Positions 6,202-40,662 of a stretch of 64,000 bases of DNA are shown here, piece after piece (the stretch's first letter is position 1; each line of letters opens with the position of its first letter). A program made the position numbers and the translations under genes. The notes under the pieces were generated by a model. It searched no databases and had not been told where the DNA came from. It saw only the letters and a list, made by a program, of their open reading frames with translations. The stretch comes from Actinomycetota bacterium (GTDB taxonomy: Bacteria > Actinomycetota > Acidimicrobiia > Acidimicrobiales > Iamiaceae), in NCBI GenBank assembly GCA_019639075.1, contig JAHBSO010000003.1, positions 124,001 to 188,000 on the forward strand, in the 5' to 3' direction.

Positions 6202-7704
6202 TCAGCTGGCGGCCGCGGTGAAGTTCTCGATCTTCTCGATGATCTGGCTGAGGTTGAACGACGCCGGTTCGTGGCGCTGCGGGAACTCCTGGAGCGTCTG
6301 GAGGAGCTCGGCCGCGTACATCTGCGCCGGAACGACCAGGTACACGCGGTCGAGCATCCACTCGTAGTACGAGTTCGAGGTGATGTCGGCCCGTTCGAAC
6401 GGGTCCGTACGCAGGTTGAAGATCTTCGGGACGCGCAGCTCGACGAACGGCTCGGCCCAGACCTGCAACGTGCCCGGGGCGCGCTGCTCGAGGAACACCA
6501 GCTTCCAGTTGTCGTACCGCATCGCCGTGAGATCGCCGTCGTCGGAGCAGTAGAAGAAGTAGGGCCGCGGGCTGGTCTCGGTCTCGCCCGTGATGTAGTC
6601 GAGCTGGTTGAAGCCGTCGAGGTGCACCTTGTAGTTCGTGCCGCCGAGGTCGGTGCCGGCCTTGAGCTGCTCGGCGATGTCGGGGTTGCCCGCCGCGGCG
6701 AGCAGCGTCACGAACCAGTCGTTGTGGCTCACGATGTCGTTCAGGACGGTGCCGGGGGCGATCTTGCCGGGCCAGCGCACCACGCAGGGGACGCGGTAGG
6801 CGCCCTCCCAGTTGGAGTTCTTCTCGTTCCGGAACGGGGTCATGCCGGCGTCGGGCCACGAGTTCATGTGCGGCCCGTTGTCGGTGGAGTACATCACGAT
6901 CGTGTTGTCGGCGATGCCCAGCGCGTCGAGCTCGTCGAGCACCTGGCCGACGATCTCGTCGTGGTACACCATCGTGTCGTGGTAGGGCGACTGCCACCGA
7001 CCGGCCCGGCCCAGGTCCTCGTCGCGCGTGTGCGTCTTGAAATGCATGTGGGTGGTGTTGAACCAGACGAAGAACGGCGTGTCCGCCTCGGTCTGGCGCC
7101 GCATGAAGTCGATCGTGGCGTCGCGGAACTCCTCGTCGCAGGTCTTCATGCGCTCCTTGGTGAGGGGCCCCGTGTCCTCGATGCGCTGGGTGCCGTCGCC
7201 GTTGGCCCACGACTTCATGACGCCCCGGGGTCCGAACCGCTCCCGGAAGTGGGGGAATTCCTCCGGCTTCGGGTAGTCCGGGTGCTCCGGCTCCTCCTCG
7301 GCGTTGAGGTGGTACAGGTTCCCGAAGAACTCGTCGAAGCCGTGCATCGTCGGCAGGTACTCGTCACGGTCGCCGAAGTGGTTCTTGCCGAACTGCCCGG
7401 TGGCGTACCCCTCGGCCTTGAGCGCGGTGGCGATGGTCGGGTCCTCGTCGGCGTAGCCGATCGGGGCACCCGGGAGACCGACCTTGGTGAGGCCCGTCCG
7501 GTAGGGGTTCTGACCGCTGATGAAGGCGGCGCGGCCGGCGGTGCAGCTCTGCTCGCCGTAGTAGTCGGTGAAGCGCACGCCCTCGTTGGCGATCCGGTCG
7601 ATGTTCGGCGTCCGGTAGCCCATCAGCCCGTCGCTGTAACAGCTCAGGTTCGAGATGCCGATGTCGTCACCCCAGATGATCAAGATGTTCGGTTTGTCAG
7701 CCAT
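6202..7704 (-). CDS. arylsulfatase with C-T-A-G-R formylglycine motif
   Basis: Sulfatase-family (alkaline phosphatase superfamily) enzyme of 500 residues that hydrolyses sulfate esters. The N-terminal metal-binding GDDIG stretch (residues 12-16) replaces the usual DDxG. The formylglycine site is Cys54 in C-T-A-G-R, where Ala stands at the position usually taken by Pro. FGKNHFG and the STDNGPHMNSWPDAG segment supply further active-site residues. There is no signal peptide, so it is likely cytoplasmic unless exported by another route. ATG 7704 is preceded by GAAGGAG at good spacing. It heads the arylsulfatase-methyltransferase-HAD operon. No formylglycine-generating enzyme gene is in the window, so maturation depends on a gene elsewhere. 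Confidence 0.93.
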   Translation of the reverse strand: MADKPNILIIWGDDIGISNLSCYSDGLMGYRTPNIDRIANEGVRFTDYYGEQSCTAGRAAFISGQNPYRTGLTKVGLPGAPIGYADEDPTIATALKAEGYATGQFGKNHFGDRDEYLPTMHGFDEFFGNLYHLNAEEEPEHPDYPKPEEFPHFRERFGPRGVMKSWANGDGTQRIEDTGPLTKERMKTCDEEFRDATIDFMRRQTEADTPFFVWFNTTHMHFKTHTRDEDLGRAGRWQSPYHDTMVYHDEIVGQVLDELDALGIADNTIVMYSTDNGPHMNSWPDAGMTPFRNEKNSNWEGAYRVPCVVRWPGKIAPGTVLNDIVSHNDWFVTLLAAAGNPDIAEQLKAGTDLGGTNYKVHLDGFNQLDYITGETETSPRPYFFYCSDDGDLTAMRYDNWKLVFLEQRAPGTLQVWAEPFVELRVPKIFNLRTDPFERADITSNSYYEWMLDRVYLVVPAQMYAAELLQTLQEFPQRHEPASFNLSQIIEKIENFTAAAS

Positions 7705-7766
7705 GGGAGACTCCTTCGACGGCGAATCGACCGGAATGGGCGAGTCAGCGCGGAGCGTAGACCGGA

Positions 7767-8963
7767 TCAACCGGCGTAGCTGGCGGACCCGGGCACGGCC
7801 TCGGCGCCGGCGGCCGACGGGGTCGGGTCGGTGCCCCCGCCGGTCGGCGCGGTCGTGTCGACCGAGGGTGGCACCGTGGTCACCGGCACCGCATCGCCGC
7901 ACAGGTCCGCCCGCCCGTCGTCGTTCTGGTCCGACGACGCGTAGGTCACCAACCCGGCCAGCATCGTGCGGACGTTGGCGGCGAGGTAGTCGGGGTCGAG
8001 CGTCTCGGGCGTGTCGCCGACGGTGTGGTAGTTGGGGTTCCGGAAGTTGGCGGTGTCGGTGGCCATGAGCGCCGGGAACCCCTGGCTGAGGAACGCCGCG
8101 TGGTCCGAGCGCAGGATGTCGCCCAGCACCGCGGGGTCGATCACCGCGCCGAACGCCGGATGCTCGGGCGTGTAGCGGAACGCCGCGGCCCCGAAGGTCC
8201 GGGCCAGCACCGCCGAGGAGGGATCGGCCACCATCGCCAGGTAGTCGTTCGGGAGCCCGGTGAGCGCATCGGTGCCCTCGGCCGTGTAGCCGAGCATCTC
8301 GAGGCTGACCGCACCGACGACGTCGGCGTCCTCGTCGGCCAGCGTGGTGGCCATCTCGAACGCGCCGAGCAGGCCGACCTCCTCGTAGGACCACGACGCG
8401 AACCTCACCGTGATCGGGAGCGGGTGGTCGCGCAGGGCACGGGCGAGCTCGAGCATGCCGGCCACGCCGGTGGCGTTGTCGTCGGCACCCGCGCCCTCGG
8501 GGTGCGCCGAGTCGTAGTGGCCGCCGATCACGAACACCCGCGACGGGCAGTCGGTGCCCGCCAGCTCGGCGTACAGGTTCGGCGAGTCGACACCGTTCCG
8601 GACGACCGACTGCAGGACCGGTTCGTAGCCCGCGTCGGTCAACCCCGCGGCGACGAGATCCCGGGCCTCCTGCCGGGCCGACTCGGGGCCGGCCGCGGTG
8701 CGGGGGAAGGCCAGCGACTCGACGAACGCCATCGCCCGGTCCCGATCGATCGAGCCCAGGAGCGGCGTCGGGTCGACCACCACCTTCGACGGATCCATGC
8801 CGAACTGGTCCGGGTAGACGACCGTCGAGGCCAGCGGGCCGGTGATGTCGTCGAACCGGTCGTCGGCCGGATCGGCGCTGCCGACCCCGGCCACGCCCGC
8901 CACCAGTGCCACCGCGACCGCGCCGCCCGCGACCGCCCGGCGGATCCCCTTGCTCCCCGTCAT
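7767..8963 (-). CDS. secreted M28-family zinc aminopeptidase
   Basis: Exported metallopeptidase of 398 residues. A signal peptide (residues about 7-31, ending in A-D-P) leads into a mature M28 domain. Zinc ligands are visible as GGHYDSAHPEG, ADDNATG, the EE pair in SYEEVGLLGAF and the late NYHTVGDT histidine. These match Aap/PgcP-type aminopeptidases. After the catalytic domain come about 45 residues rich in Thr, Pro and Gly, ending V-P-G-S-A-S-Y-A-G. This tail closely resembles the end of the neighbouring GH5 protein. ATG 8963 is chosen over an upstream in-frame codon at 9008 because it starts the signal peptide and because a TAGGTT box ends 7 bases before it. It is flanked upstream by paired palindromes. 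Confidence 0.9.
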   Translation of the reverse strand: MTGSKGIRRAVAGGAVAVALVAGVAGVGSADPADDRFDDITGPLASTVVYPDQFGMDPSKVVVDPTPLLGSIDRDRAMAFVESLAFPRTAAGPESARQEARDLVAAGLTDAGYEPVLQSVVRNGVDSPNLYAELAGTDCPSRVFVIGGHYDSAHPEGAGADDNATGVAGMLELARALRDHPLPITVRFASWSYEEVGLLGAFEMATTLADEDADVVGAVSLEMLGYTAEGTDALTGLPNDYLAMVADPSSAVLARTFGAAAFRYTPEHPAFGAVIDPAVLGDILRSDHAAFLSQGFPALMATDTANFRNPNYHTVGDTPETLDPDYLAANVRTMLAGLVTYASSDQNDDGRADLCGDAVPVTTVPPSVDTTAPTGGGTDPTPSAAGAEAVPGSASYAG

Positions 8964-11770: not shown

Positions 11771-13519
11771 TCAGGCGGCCCGGGGACCCCGCACGAGCCG
11801 ACCGGGACGGGCGCCGGTGTCGGCGTCCTGCTCGCGGGTGACGGTGCCGGCGACGAGCGTGGCGAGGTAGCCCGAGGCGCCCTGCAGGATCCGTGAGGCC
11901 CCGGTCGGGAGGTCGGCCCGCACCTCGGGTTCGAGGATGTGGAGCCGCTCGAAGTCGATCACGTTCAGGTCGGCCCGGCGGCCCGGCGCGAGCACGCCCC
12001 GGTCGTCCAGGCTGTAGAGCGATGCGTTGGCCCCGGTCTGCTTGTGGACCAACAGCTCGATCGGGAGCTGGTCGCGGGACCGGTCGCGTGCCCAGTGGGT
12101 GATCTGGAACGTGGGGGCCGAGCAGTCCGAGATGAAGTTCACGTGGGCACCGGCGTCGCCCAGGCCGCTGACCGTGTTGGGGTCGAGGAGCATCTCCCGG
12201 CACGCGTCGAGCGAGCCGCCGACGTAGTTGGAGCCGAGCACGGCGAAGAAGCGACGGCCGCCGTCCTCCAGCAGCCGGTCGTACATGTGGGCCACGGGGT
12301 CGATCCCCTGGGCCATCGCCTGCGCGAACACCGAGTCGCCGAGCTCGGGCTCGTAGCGCAGCGGCGCCTCGAGCGAGAACGTGATCGGCAGCGCGGCCTG
12401 GAACAGCTGCACGAACTGACCGGGGCCGCCCTTCGCCCGCTGCTCCGACAGGATCGCGTCGCGCACCTCGGGCTGCTGCATGCGGGCCACCCGCTCGGGC
12501 AGCGGGAGGTGGGCGATGGCCTCGTAGCTCGGCCGACCCTCGAACAGGTGGTACGTGTCGAGGCTCGACATGACCGTGACCGAGCGGGAGATCACCTGCG
12601 GGTGGAGGCGGGCACCGGCCCGGTTGGCCTCGGCGGCGGCGTCGAGCACCAGCCGCCAGTGGGTCGGGTCCTCGAAGAGCTGGGCGACCGTGAACGTCGA
12701 CCGGCACCTGCCGCGGGTGGACACCTCGGCCAGCAGCGGGAGCTCCTGGAGCGGCGTGGCCTGCTCGCCGCCGAGCATCGGCAGGGCCCCGATGGTGCCC
12801 GCGAGGATGGCCTCGAAGACGCCGTGGCCGGCATCGGCGATGGCGTCGGCCAGCGCCCGCAGCTCGTCGGCCGGCGCGAAGGTCCCGGGGACGGGCTCAC
12901 CCGAGATCGACCGGTGGCCGATCGTGCGCGAGGTGGACACGCCGAGCGCGCCGGCCCGGAGCGCGTCGGTGGTGATGCGGACCATCGCCTCGAGGTCCTC
13001 CGCCGTGGCGTCCTCGTTGGCGACGCCCCGCTCGCCCATCACGTAGTACCGGAGCGCGCCGTGGGCCAGGTGGGTGCCGACGTCGACGGCGTAGGACCGC
13101 TCGTCGAGCACGTCGAGGTACTCGCCGAACGACTCCCAACGACCCCACGGCATGCCGTCGCTCAGCGCGGCGCCGGGGATGTCCTCGACGCCCTCCATGA
13201 GGTCGATCAGCCCGGCCTCGTCGCCGGGGCGGACCGGCGCGAAGCCCACGCCGCAGTTGCCCATGACGACGGTGGTGACGCCGTTGGACGCCGAGGGTTC
13301 GAGCGCGTCGTCCCACGTGACCTGGCCGTCGTAGTGGGTGTGGACGTCGACCCAACCGGGCGTGACCACGGCGCCGTCGGCGTCGATCGTGCGGCGGGCC
13401 CCGCCGTCGACCTCGCCGACCGCGACGATGCGGTCGCCGTCGATCGCCACGTCGCCGGTGACCGGCGGCGCGCCGGTCCCGTCCACGATCGTGCCCCCTC
13501 GGATGATGACGTCGTACAT
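11771..13519 (-). CDS. N-acyl-D-amino-acid deacylase / amidohydrolase
   Basis: Amidohydrolase-superfamily enzyme of 582 residues of the D-aminoacylase type, expected to release D-amino acids from N-acyl derivatives. It starts with the typical MYDVIIRGGTIVDGTG beta-sandwich strand and has the metal-binding VDVHTHYDG motif near residue 65, then MGNCGVG. Later features are the GLGDAGAHVNFISDCSAP segment and a C-terminal PGRRADLNVIDF sandwich closure. These describe the COG3653 group. ATG 13519 gives the correct N-terminus, though reading frame upstream stays open by chance. Its 3' end is 3 bases from the convergent rhodanese stop. Preferred amino acid unknown. Confidence 0.9.
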   Translation of the reverse strand: MYDVIIRGGTIVDGTGAPPVTGDVAIDGDRIVAVGEVDGGARRTIDADGAVVTPGWVDVHTHYDGQVTWDDALEPSASNGVTTVVMGNCGVGFAPVRPGDEAGLIDLMEGVEDIPGAALSDGMPWGRWESFGEYLDVLDERSYAVDVGTHLAHGALRYYVMGERGVANEDATAEDLEAMVRITTDALRAGALGVSTSRTIGHRSISGEPVPGTFAPADELRALADAIADAGHGVFEAILAGTIGALPMLGGEQATPLQELPLLAEVSTRGRCRSTFTVAQLFEDPTHWRLVLDAAAEANRAGARLHPQVISRSVTVMSSLDTYHLFEGRPSYEAIAHLPLPERVARMQQPEVRDAILSEQRAKGGPGQFVQLFQAALPITFSLEAPLRYEPELGDSVFAQAMAQGIDPVAHMYDRLLEDGGRRFFAVLGSNYVGGSLDACREMLLDPNTVSGLGDAGAHVNFISDCSAPTFQITHWARDRSRDQLPIELLVHKQTGANASLYSLDDRGVLAPGRRADLNVIDFERLHILEPEVRADLPTGASRILQGASGYLATLVAGTVTREQDADTGARPGRLVRGPRAA

Positions 13520-13581
13520 GTCGGGCCTCCCCTGATGGCCTTCGTGCTGGCGAACCGTCGACCTTCCTACCCCAGGTTTCG

Positions 13582-13700
13582 GTTCTTCGGGGCGATCGCC
13601 TCCTTGACGGTGCAGATTCCCCCGAAGAACGGTCTCGCCGATCGGGCTCCCGATTCTTCGGGGCGATCTGCGGGCTGAGCCGGCAGATCTCCCCGAAGAA
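13582..13700. repeat. two copies of a 47-49 bp palindromic repeat
   Basis: Copy 1 (13582-13630) has GTTCTTCGGGG and CCCCGAAGAAC arms around a divergent centre. Copy 2 (13654-13700) has longer arms, TTCTTCGGGGCGATCTGC paired to its complement with one mismatch, and a GGCT/AGCC tip. Copy 2 is identical over 47 bases to copy 3 at 14090-14136. Copies 2 and 3 thus flank the small membrane-protein gene. Copies 1 and 2 lie between divergent genes, so they are not simple terminators. Confidence 0.88.
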
Positions 13701-13735
13701 CCGATGCGTCGGGAAGTGTGGCAGGCTCCCGCTCC

Positions 13736-14074
13736 GTGCAAGCCGACGGCGGTGAGGCCGCGCTCCTCCTGCTCCTGGCGCTCGTCCCGATGGGACTGGT
13801 CCTCGTCCTGGCCGTCGCGATCGCGCGGTCCACGAGCGGACGCGGGTGGGTTGCGTTCCTGGCGATGGCCGTGGGCGTGGTCGTCGCGGTCACGTTGCGA
13901 CGGTGGGTCCGGCTCGAAGGGACGACTGCGGTGACGATCGGGTTCGGCGCCGCGATCGCGCTCGCCACGACCGCCCGCGCCGTGCTTCCGCCGCCCCGTC
14001 CTCGATCCACCAGACGCGGATCGCACGCGAAGGCGCCTCGGGCTCCTGCCCGTGACGACGACCTCGCCCCTTAG
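13736..14074 (+). CDS. small membrane protein, unknown function
   Basis: Hypothetical protein of 112 residues with three hydrophobic segments: about residues 8-28 (ALLLLLALVPMGLVLVLAV), 36-52 and 62-80. A basic, Pro/Arg-rich tail follows and ends in acidic residues. The sequence predicts an inner-membrane protein and nothing more specific. GTG 13736 is preferred because a CAGGCT box ends eight bases before it; GTG 13718 would add six residues. The gene sits alone between two identical copies of the TTCTTCGGGG palindrome, so it may travel with them. No relative is recognised. Confidence 0.5.
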   Translation: MQADGGEAALLLLLALVPMGLVLVLAVAIARSTSGRGWVAFLAMAVGVVVAVTLRRWVRLEGTTAVTIGFGAAIALATTARAVLPPPRPRSTRRGSHAKAPRAPARDDDLAP

Positions 14075-37667: not shown

Positions 37668-37683
37668 TCGAACACGTGTTCGG
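37668..37683 (+). promoter_or_regulatory. LexA-type SOS box
   Basis: TCGAACACGTGTTCGG matches the actinobacterial LexA site TCGAAC-N4-GTTCGA at 15 of its symmetric positions and includes a perfect CGAACACGTGTTCG palindrome. It directly abuts the -10 box TAGACT (37684-37689), seven bases before the ATG of the HNH gene, so LexA binding would block the promoter. Confidence 0.82.
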
Positions 37684-37696
37684 TAGACTGGTGCAC

Positions 37697-39017
37697 ATGA
37701 CGGCGGACGTCAGCGGTGCACCATCCGAGTTCAGCGACCCAGCGGGCACGTTCGCGTCCCTGGCCGCACAGCTCACCGACCTGGCTCCCCTGCTCGACGG
37801 CGCGCTGGCCAACTCGACCCCGGGCGAACGTCAGCACGCGGTCGTCACCCTGTGCGCGGCACTCGACCGCATCGAGGCCGCCGCCGCGACGGTCGCCGGC
37901 GTCTCGGAGGACCGGCTCGACCACCTGCTCGACGGCGCCCGGTCCATGGCCACCTGGATCTGCGCCCGCACCGAGACCGCCCGTCCCCGAGCGCACAGTC
38001 TCCTCGGGTTGCACGGTGCGGTGGAGCGCTTCGATGCCATCGCCGCCGCGTGGCGCACCGGGGTGATCGGCACCGCCAAGGTGAAAGCCATGCTCAAGGC
38101 CGGCTCGGGCCTCGAACCCGAACTGGAACGCGACCAACAGGCCCTGATCGACCACATCGCCCCGCTACGGGTCCTGTCCGCCCAAGCCGTCCTGCGCAAG
38201 TGGCGCCACGCCGTCCTGGCCGACCGCGACCAGTCCCCCGACGACCCGCGACCCACCGACCAACCCGTCAACAGCATCCGGATCGGCTCCGGCGTGAGCG
38301 ACGAGACCATCGCCACCACGATCCTCGACCCGCTCCACGCCGCCGAGTACCGCTCGCTGATCGACGCCGAGATCGACCGACTCTTCCGCACCGGCCACTA
38401 CACCAGCGACGACGGCATGACCCTCGAGGAACGCCGCCTCGACGCCCAACTCGAGCTCATGCGCCGCGGCGCGCTGGTACAGATGGGGTCAGACCCCAAC
38501 TGTGCCGTCGTCGATCCGGGCGAGACTCTCGACGTGCGCACAGTTGGGGTCTGACCCCATCTGTACGAGGCCCTGCGGCACCACCGACGGCACCCCGCTC
38601 GCCCGACAGGACGTCCTCGACACGCTCGCCAACGACCCGGCCGTCACCGCCGTCCTCGGCTTCTACGGCATCACCGGACGCTTCCGACCCGTCGGCGAGA
38701 TCACCACCAACCGCATCGCCTCCGCGCCACAACGCCGCATGCTCAAAGCCAGGGACAACGGCTGCATGTGGCCCGGCTGCGACACCCCCGCCACCCGCAC
38801 CCGAGCCCACCACGAACCCCCGTACGAACAGACGCGGCGAACCACCACCGACCAGCTCGTCTCGCTCTGCCACCACCACCACCGATGTCGCCACGACCAC
38901 GGCTTCACCATCGACCTCACCCCCAACGGCGACCTCACCGTGAAACGACCCGACGGCACACCCCTCCCCACCGAACCACCCGGCCGAAAGCTCCCCCGCC
39001 CGAGACCCGATCGCTAG
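37697..39017 (+). pseudogene. DUF222/13E12-type HNH endonuclease, interrupted by a palindromic element
   Basis: The 5' part (37697-38554) encodes the DUF222 helical domain with AAAATVAGVSEDRLDHLLDG and VKAMLKAGSGLEPELERDQQ. The 3' part, in the +1 frame, encodes the nuclease domain: RMLKARDNGCMWPGCDTPATRTRAHHE and LVSLCHHHHRCRHDHGF (HNH with Cys ligands). Between them lies a 90-base inverted-repeat element (38477-38566) that supplies a TGA in the first frame. The normal linker of this family looks partly lost. The gene is preceded by a LexA box and a TAGACT -10 box, like the DNA-damage-inducible 13E12 genes of mycobacteria. As it stands, the nuclease domain is cut off from the start. Confidence 0.83.
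38477..38566. mobile_element. 90-bp palindromic insertion element (MITE/REP-like)
   Basis: Two exact 29-base inverted arms, 38477-38505 and 38538-38566, begin GTACAGATGGGGTCAGACCC and surround a 32-base centre. Each arm contains the smaller palindrome GGGGTCAGACCCC. The element interrupts the HNH gene and introduces its stop codon. GGGGTCAGACCCC hairpins are characteristic of REP elements mobilised by TnpA-REP (RAYT) transposases; no such transposase gene is in this window. Confidence 0.83.
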
Positions 39018-39030
39018 GGTGCGGGTCGCC

Positions 39031-40575
39031 ATGGAGTCCCCAGATCGGACGGGTTCGGCGGGCGGGCCCAACGGGAGCACCTGGGTTCGTCGCGAGCCCA
39101 CGCCGTCGGCGGTCGGCTTCGTCGATCCCGACGTGATGGCCGCCATCGTCGGCGCGACCGTCGAGGCGACCGCGACCGACGGAGCGCTCACGGACGCGCA
39201 GACACTGGTGGTCCAGGCGGTCGCCTCGATGCTGGTCGGTCACGAGATGCCGACCGCCGACTGCCCACCGGTCGCGCCCGACCGCCTCGCCGCGGTCGCC
39301 GACCAGCACGGGCTCACCGGATCGATGCGCATCGCGATCGTGAAGTACCAGGCACTCTCGGCCCTGCTGCTCGACCCGGTTCCCCCGGCGACCATCCGAC
39401 GCATCGAGGAGACGGCCAGCGCCCTGGGCGTCGACCAGACGTTGGCGGCGGCATCGCTGCGCCCGGTCGACGATGGCTTCGCCGATGCCGCCCTGCTCGA
39501 CTTCGCCCGCAACGGCTACGCCCGCAGCTTCTTCGCGTCGGGCGAAGCCGCCGCGCTGCACGCCGACGTCGACCCGAGCGACGGCTGGCGGACCGACGAC
39601 CACGACCGGAACCTCGCCGAACGGTGGCAACGGCTCGGCGAGCTCGCCCACGGCACCCTCGGCCGCGGCGTGTGGGACTTCTACCGGTCGCGGGCGTTCA
39701 CCTTCCCCGGCACGCCCGACTCGGCGTCGCCGCTGCTCGCCCAGCACGACTGGATCCACGTGCTCGCCGACTACGGCACCCGGTTGGAGAGCGAGCTCGA
39801 GGTGTTCGCGATGATCGCCGAGTCCGACGACGATCCCCACGGCTTCAGCCTGCTCGCCATGGTGATCGGACTGTTCGAGACGGGCGCGGTGCCGAGCGCC
39901 GCGGGCATCTTCGAGGCCGACACCGGCCACCTCGACACCCCGGGGATGCCCGAGCGGCTGGCCGATGCCCTCCGCCGCGGGTCGCTGGTGACGAAGCCCG
40001 ACGGTTCGCGGGACGGCGGCCTGCTGGCCACCGACTGGTTCGCCCACGCCCACCGACCCATCGACGAGGTCCGGGAGGCGTGCGGCATCGTGGCGAAGGC
40101 GCCGGCGGCGATCATGGCGGGGAGCGCCGGCACATGGGACGTCGCCGGCCTGTCGGACTTTCAGGTCGCGCACTGCGACCTCACGATCCTCGACTCGTAC
40201 CACCACCCCCACACGCCGGAGGCACCCCAAGTGGACAACGACGACATCGATCCGACCGTCCCGCCGAGCGGCACCGGCTGCGTGGAGTGCGACCGGACCG
40301 GCGGGTGGTGGGTGCACCTGCGCCGCTGCGCGGCCTGCGGTCACATCGGCTGCTGCGACACGTCACCGAGCCAGCACGCCTCCCACCACGCGCAGGACAC
40401 GGGCCACCCGGTGATCCAGTCGTTCGAGCCGGGCGAGGACTGGTTCTACGACTACCGCTCCGGCGACTTCGTCGATGGACCCACGCTCGCACCGCCGACG
40501 AGCCACCCCGCCGACCAGGCCGTACCGGGTCCGGCCGACCGGGTCCCACCGGACTGGCGCTCGCTCATCCACTGA
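39031..40575 (+). CDS. TerB-like / Coq4-like / UBP-zinc-finger fusion protein
   Basis: Protein of 514 residues with three recognisable parts. Residues about 25-135 are all-alpha with two repeats of the TerB kind (DGALTDAQTLVVQAVASMLVG). Residues about 200-270 contain the Coq4-like metal motif HDWIH-x11-E (His239 to Glu255) within GRGVWDFYRSRAFTF...QHDWIHVLADYG. Residues 417-480 form a UBP-type zinc finger: CVEC, CAACGHIGCC, HASHH and a late GH. Coq4 acts in quinone biosynthesis; bacterial UBP fingers are unassigned. The combined function is unknown. ATG 39031 follows a TAGGGT box whose TAG is the stop codon of the HNH gene; GTG 39019 is an alternative. Confidence 0.78.
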   Translation: MESPDRTGSAGGPNGSTWVRREPTPSAVGFVDPDVMAAIVGATVEATATDGALTDAQTLVVQAVASMLVGHEMPTADCPPVAPDRLAAVADQHGLTGSMRIAIVKYQALSALLLDPVPPATIRRIEETASALGVDQTLAAASLRPVDDGFADAALLDFARNGYARSFFASGEAAALHADVDPSDGWRTDDHDRNLAERWQRLGELAHGTLGRGVWDFYRSRAFTFPGTPDSASPLLAQHDWIHVLADYGTRLESELEVFAMIAESDDDPHGFSLLAMVIGLFETGAVPSAAGIFEADTGHLDTPGMPERLADALRRGSLVTKPDGSRDGGLLATDWFAHAHRPIDEVREACGIVAKAPAAIMAGSAGTWDVAGLSDFQVAHCDLTILDSYHHPHTPEAPQVDNDDIDPTVPPSGTGCVECDRTGGWWVHLRRCAACGHIGCCDTSPSQHASHHAQDTGHPVIQSFEPGEDWFYDYRSGDFVDGPTLAPPTSHPADQAVPGPADRVPPDWRSLIH

Positions 40576-40585
40576 GCGCGAGATC

Positions 40586-40662
40586 TGGTGGGCGTAACAG
40601 GATTCGAACCTGTGACCTCTGCCGTGTGAAGGCAGCGCTCTAACCAACTGAGCCATACGCCC
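40586..40662 (-). tRNA. tRNA-Val (CAC)
   Basis: A 77-base cloverleaf on the minus strand: GGGCGTA acceptor, GCTC D-stem, anticodon stem CTGCC/GGCAG with loop TTCACAC (anticodon CAC, reading GTG), T-arm ACAGG-TTCGAAT-CCTGT, and a genome-encoded CCA. It lies between the Coq4-like gene and the DnaJ-domain gene. Confidence 0.95.

Follow-up and report, generated by a model that had tools for sequence, protein, structure and literature searches.

How a Coq4-like domain and a UBP-type zinc finger came to lie in a single bacterial polypeptide, and what such a polypeptide would do, are the questions raised by a gene at positions 39031..40575 (+ strand) of the window, a 64,000-nucleotide stretch of contig JAHBSO010000003.1 from an uncultured Actinomycetota bacterium of the family Iamiaceae. 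The gene is an end-to-end fusion, in one genome, of two kinds of protein that are kept apart in relatives. The preferred reading, on which confidence and doubt are evenly balanced, is that two genes were joined, combining a metal-dependent, Coq4-like enzyme for lipid or quinone head groups with a redox-linked docking finger.

The fused gene and its surroundings

The gene encodes 514 amino acids in an uninterrupted frame with coding-type GC bias at third positions, running from ATG 39031 to a stop codon at 40573-40575; GTG 39019 is a possible alternative start. The 514-residue open reading frame of the first-pass annotation is thus intact at 39031-40575. In the full structural model, three parts are distinguished, namely a TerB-like bundle (residues ~29-150), a Coq4-like fold (~151-362) and a zf-UBP finger (417-484), with residues 368-416 modelled at low confidence. 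A separate AlphaFold model of residues 1-390, built on 53 sequences, has a mean pLDDT of 85 and a pTM of 0.86. The Pfam scan gave no TerB or Coq4 call in the first 390 residues of the window protein, so that both assignments rest on relatives and on fold. NCBIfam and PADLOC scans returned no match for the window protein, and the NCBIfam scan of its relatives returned isolated weak matches only. The three-part order, for which the first-pass annotation knew of no described system, holds as an observation, its first part as a resemblance to the TerB fold; TerB plus Coq4-like is, however, the standard form of a family, and the finger is the one additional part.

A tRNA-Val (40586..40662, - strand) follows the fused gene directly on its downstream side. 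It was considered as an island boundary and rejected, since ten related loci have no tRNA there and no telling repeat was seen. Directly upstream (37676-39017), two overlapping frames resemble one interrupted HNH/13E12-type endonuclease gene, a label that comes from reading the sequence, as neither frame has a Pfam match. The apparent interruption (38474-38569) consists of an inverted repeat of 41 nt around a loop of 14 nt and holds TGGGGTCAGACCCCA and TGGGGTCTGACCCCA. A 98-nt tRNA-His called by ARAGORN at 38096-38193, inside the endonuclease-like frame, is probably a false call.

The Coq4-like domain and its metal site

The Coq4-like domain occupies residues ~151-362 (39481..40116, + strand). 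The model of residues 1-390 matches Coq4 structures over residues 151-355 (6e12, Z 11.8; 3msq, Z 10.5), and the same structures form the top rows of the fold search when both models are considered (6e12, Z 11.8-13.1; 3msq, Z 10.5-11.4), a Z of this size being inconclusive on its own for a helical protein. Foldseek assigns the Coq4 fold with a probability of 1.00 and E 0.003-0.006. Residues 180-300, for which the first-pass annotation had proposed a Coq4 fold, lie within the matched region, and the absence of a match there, named in that annotation as refuting, was not observed. Sequence profiles agree: the profile of the TerB–Coq4-like family picks out 3msq, a Coq4 structure, at E 2.3e-5, the metal motifs of the two being aligned in register, and hhalign against two genuine Coq4 proteins, encoded by a genome within the same order, gives a probability of 97.2% and E 3.7e-11 over 140 columns reaching the EVRxxxGI end. 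Weak matches to Pfam Coq4 (PF05019) are found in 43 of 53 relatives (best E 3.7e-5). The window protein scores below the Pfam gathering score and is therefore classed as a distant relative rather than a member; fold, sequence profile and motif jointly carry its Coq4 assignment.

The metal motif HDWIH-x11-E (39745..39795, + strand) consists of H239, D240 and H243 (HDWIH, residues 239-243) and E255, and aligns with HD..H..E of 3msq. Its chance expectation in a protein of this composition is 0.004. All four residues are present as first described and are invariant in 53/53 aligned sequences, as are D157, R160, Y218 and G285 in these 53 distant relatives, a set that takes in metagenome entries labelled gammaproteobacterial, hyphomicrobial and cyanobacterial. 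In the AlphaFold model, helix 234-245 carries H239, D240 and H243, and the helix that follows it, 252-264, carries E255.

With the Coq4 family (Alr8543, 6E12; Nostoc, 3msq) the protein thus shares a fold over ~200 residues, HDxxH-x11-E, the GTLG and EVRxxxGI neighbourhoods and a homology detectable by profile comparison. It differs in its added N-terminal TerB-like domain, in an identity of 16-19%, in falling under the Pfam cut-off and in its actinobacterial host, in which COQ7 was not detected. In Alr8543, two Mg2+ ions are bound at HDXXH-(X)10-13-E (PMC9774615). Rather than an enzyme, the domain might be a lipid carrier or scaffold whose metal site holds a lipid phosphate or head group, a reading judged rather unlikely. 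Yeast Coq4 was long regarded as the organiser of the CoQ complex (PMC12938788) and oleic acid together with Mg2+ is present in Alr8543 crystals (PMC9774615), both of which suit a carrier; against it, the metal residues are invariant along with D157, R160, Y218 and G285, as in an active site, and COQ4, linked to oxidative decarboxylation, is now reported to have a catalytic role (PMC12938788). A quinone or lipid head-group enzyme, as first proposed, is plausible by analogy. A motif shared with Coq4 is no proof of a shared reaction.

The TerB-like bundle and the TerB–Coq4-like family

The TerB-like helical bundle (residues ~29-150; 39115..39480, + strand) is matched by 2h5n from residue 29 onwards with Z 9.4-9.6 in the residues 1-390 and full models, and the full model yields a further match, at Z 10.3, to the COG3793 tellurite-resistance protein 2ou3. 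Such Z values come readily to helical proteins, so that the TerB label is a statement of fold resemblance. The first-pass annotation had placed TerB-like helices ahead of the Coq4 part, which the fold resemblance would suit, whereas no Pfam or NCBIfam TerB match is found in the window protein or its relatives. A weak profile match links the N-terminus to 3nuf (E 0.0025). The likeness to TerB/COG3793-like domains (2ou3, 2h5n) is that of an all-helical bundle with Z ~9.4-10.3; the differences are an identity of 8-9%, the missing Pfam TerB match and the partner of the bundle, which is a Coq4-like domain and not a ter cluster.

The two-domain form without the finger was found at ~100 loci, mostly in Actinomycetota and mainly in Acidimicrobiia, Nocardia, Catenulispora and Streptacidiphilus. 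No NCBIfam model names this TerB–Coq4-like family, most of its members fall below the Pfam Coq4 cut-off, and the literature search found no paper pairing TerB with Coq4. Proteins above the Coq4 cut-off occur in 0 of 149 sampled Actinomycetota genomes and in only 1 of 41 genomes of near relatives; hence Actinomycetota may have their main Coq4-like protein in this family. It is a more interesting object than the fusion itself.

The gene neighbourhoods of the family hold nothing conserved widely enough to name a substrate, and clusters of conserved neighbours were rejected as a substrate lead, being mostly shadow frames or confined to Nocardia. Some genomes carry more than one copy: at L095, two paralogues (7067-8296 and 12502-13779) lie ~4 kb apart on opposite strands, and G131 and G244 likewise have two copies per contig. 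In two Acidimicrobiia metagenome-assembled genomes (L107, L116), the genes are broken into several frames and represent either decaying copies or sequencing errors.

The UBP zinc finger

Residues 401-514 (40231..40572, + strand) constitute a complete zf-UBP protein module with a PVPGPxxRVPxxW tail. Pfam zf-UBP (PF02148) matches residues 417-484 with E 7.7e-14 and 52.1 bits against a cut-off of 22.7. All ligands of the Cys/His set are present (C417, C420, C433, C436, C441, C442, H449, H453 and H459), in agreement with the first reading, and C417, C420, C436 and H449 align with USP5 ligands. The full model matches the bacterial UBP finger 2ida at Z 6.2. Compared with the commoner bacterial finger, the subclass to which this one belongs is without the first CxH and without the Cys in WCY, and has the PVPGPxxRVPxxW tail. 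Stand-alone UBP proteins match the whole module, tail included, at 61-71% identity in other genomes, and plasmid-borne copies reach 74% over the module. These stand-alone proteins (2ida and those of the Actinomycetota redox operons) thus resemble the module at 61-74% identity, with the tail and the same Cys/His set; they differ in being encoded by a separate gene of 110-120 codons, while here the finger is fused behind a TerB–Coq4-like protein.

The first-pass annotation had suggested that the finger might read protein tails. A finger of this kind would recognise free protein C-termini and bring the enzyme to tagged proteins, for example to those carrying Pup or another tag. The UBP fold itself, the fold matches to the HDAC6 and USP5 fingers and the retention of USP5 W209, Y259 and Y261 as W427, Y473 and Y475 in the phmmer alignment are in keeping with such a role. 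The same alignment, however, places H438 at the position of USP5 R221, the pocket arginine for binding ubiquitin C-termini. No Pup gene was found in the host genome, which is 79% complete, and elsewhere this subclass of finger is found in redox operons, not in proteolysis loci. The suggestion is accordingly unsupported, and recognition of C-termini is very improbable.

Of 12 chromosomal loci with unfused fingers of the same subclass, 3 have the finger gene beside one for a response-regulator/pyridine-nucleotide-disulphide oxidoreductase; at one of these 3, an HATPase protein stands between oxidoreductase and finger. On Tsukamurella and Streptomyces plasmids, an FAD-dependent oxidoreductase, an ATP-binding protein and the UBP finger follow one another with 4-nt gene overlaps, and the Tsukamurella set continues with a mycothiol-dependent dehydrogenase. 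In Rhodococcus, trxA and an FAD oxidoreductase flank a UBP finger of a different type. A set composed of a response-regulator/thioredoxin-reductase-like flavoprotein, a kinase-like ATPase and a stand-alone UBP finger recurs (L175:1329-4836, L176:1353-4836, L153, L160, L161), and this flavoprotein/ATPase/finger set looks like a redox signalling unit. The window genome (79% complete) has no clear counterpart of the response-regulator/oxidoreductase partner, only separate, weaker oxidoreductases. The literature search found no paper on UBP-type fingers together with actinobacteria or with thioredoxin reductase.

Among long UBP frames, 8 of the 10 examined were Na+/H+ exchangers with a C-terminal UBP finger of another type, so that bacterial proteins with a UBP finger added at the C-terminus are not new. 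The likeness to the window protein lies in this add-on; the differences lie in the partner, a membrane antiporter, and in the finger subclass. Exchangers ending in a UBP finger recur in Actinomycetota, some of them with TrkA_N (L163-L166, L168-L170, L172). The context of bacterial UBP fingers is one of redox and ion balance, not of protein tagging.

The junction and its history

The closest relative of the enzyme part, L021 (JAGNEX010000029), is 54% identical, and its stop codon falls 14 residues past the shared AHCDLT, at the equivalent of codon 400 in the window. Residues 363-400 (40117..40230, + strand) thus correspond to the C-terminal tail of the Coq4-like protein plus the linker. Codon 400 of the fused gene is CAA, one transition from TAA. 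Immediately beyond it lies the likely former start of the UBP gene (40218..40233, + strand), composed of GGAGG at 40218-40222, a spacing of 8 nt and an in-frame GTG at 40231-40233. This GTG, codon 401, is apparently the old start of the downstream gene, judging from the sequence and from stand-alone relatives that begin nearby. With a stop at the equivalent of codon 400 in L021 and GGAGG-8-GTG in frame at codon 401, the fused gene is most simply explained as a former operon pair that lost the stop codon between its members.

The same arrangement means that a single wrong base could create the fusion. An accidental origin, by sequencing error, strain variation or recent neutral stop loss, with the parts acting separately and without combined function, is accordingly a serious reading, although it falls short of even probability. 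The fusion is known from one draft genome, in which a sequencing or assembly fault could join two genes, and it is absent from the remaining genomes searched in the family (24), class (395) and phylum (396) and from 77 GTDB loci. One base, CAA or TAA at codon 400, directly ahead of the finger's GTG, decides between one gene and two, and the window gene retains the SD sequence and the GTG. On the other side, the gene lies on a 233-kb contig with the frame open through the junction, and a random misjoin would not bring together a complete C-terminus, an SD sequence and an in-frame start.

Unfused members of the family that adjoin UBP genes also weigh against accident. In L094, a UBP gene on the same strand precedes the enzyme gene by ~18 nt; in G153 (L131), the two genes adjoin divergently; and in G025 (L130), they are 1.4 kb apart. 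By a rough estimate, 0.07-0.25 UBP neighbours would be expected among ~100 loci at 0.2-0.7 UBP genes per Mb. These neighbours are suggestive of a partnership, in a comparison made post hoc and with most loci lacking the link. The rarity of unfused linkage, seen at 1 of 77 GTDB loci, counts against an explanation by joint function.

A possible mechanism

The data show the domain content, the family, the conserved motif, the junction and the redox setting of unfused fingers. For catalysis and substrate, as for the docking role and the internal start, we infer the following scheme under the preferred reading, that of a head-group enzyme fused to a docking finger. The first 390-400 residues make up a TerB–Coq4-like protein in full. 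Its Coq4-like part is, by analogy with Coq4, probably a peripheral-membrane enzyme whose helices enclose a prenyl or acyl lipid. At HDxxH-x11-E (H239, D240, H243, E255), a divalent metal, placed there by analogy with Alr8543, would drive head-group chemistry; on the model of COQ4, a lipid of quinone or phenol type could, for example, undergo (oxidative) decarboxylation. UbiA-type prenyltransferases are present in the window genome, and COQ7 was not found in its 79% complete sequence; if the substrate is a quinone, it is therefore probably not ubiquinone. The TerB-like part may serve as a regulatory or metal/protein-binding module. The finger, comprising the last 114 residues, would tether the enzyme to a flavin/thiol redox partner or tune its activity, and might continue to be produced on its own as well, by initiation at the internal GTG.

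A broader proposal extends this scheme to the unnamed TerB plus Coq4-like family as a whole, which would work on head groups of lipids or quinones other than ubiquinone in partnership with UBP-finger/flavoprotein redox systems, the window protein being their Rosetta-stone fusion. This proposal is considered unlikely.

Significance

The combination is a fusion of two known protein kinds in one genome. Coq4 has been studied in ubiquinone-making organisms, and its chemistry was unclear until recently. Distant relatives that form a large family, share its metal site and occur in a host where COQ7 was not found could show what the Coq4 fold does outside the ubiquinone pathway. For bacterial UBP fingers, the fusion provides a testable lead, one that points to the company of flavin/thiol redox genes rather than to protein tagging.
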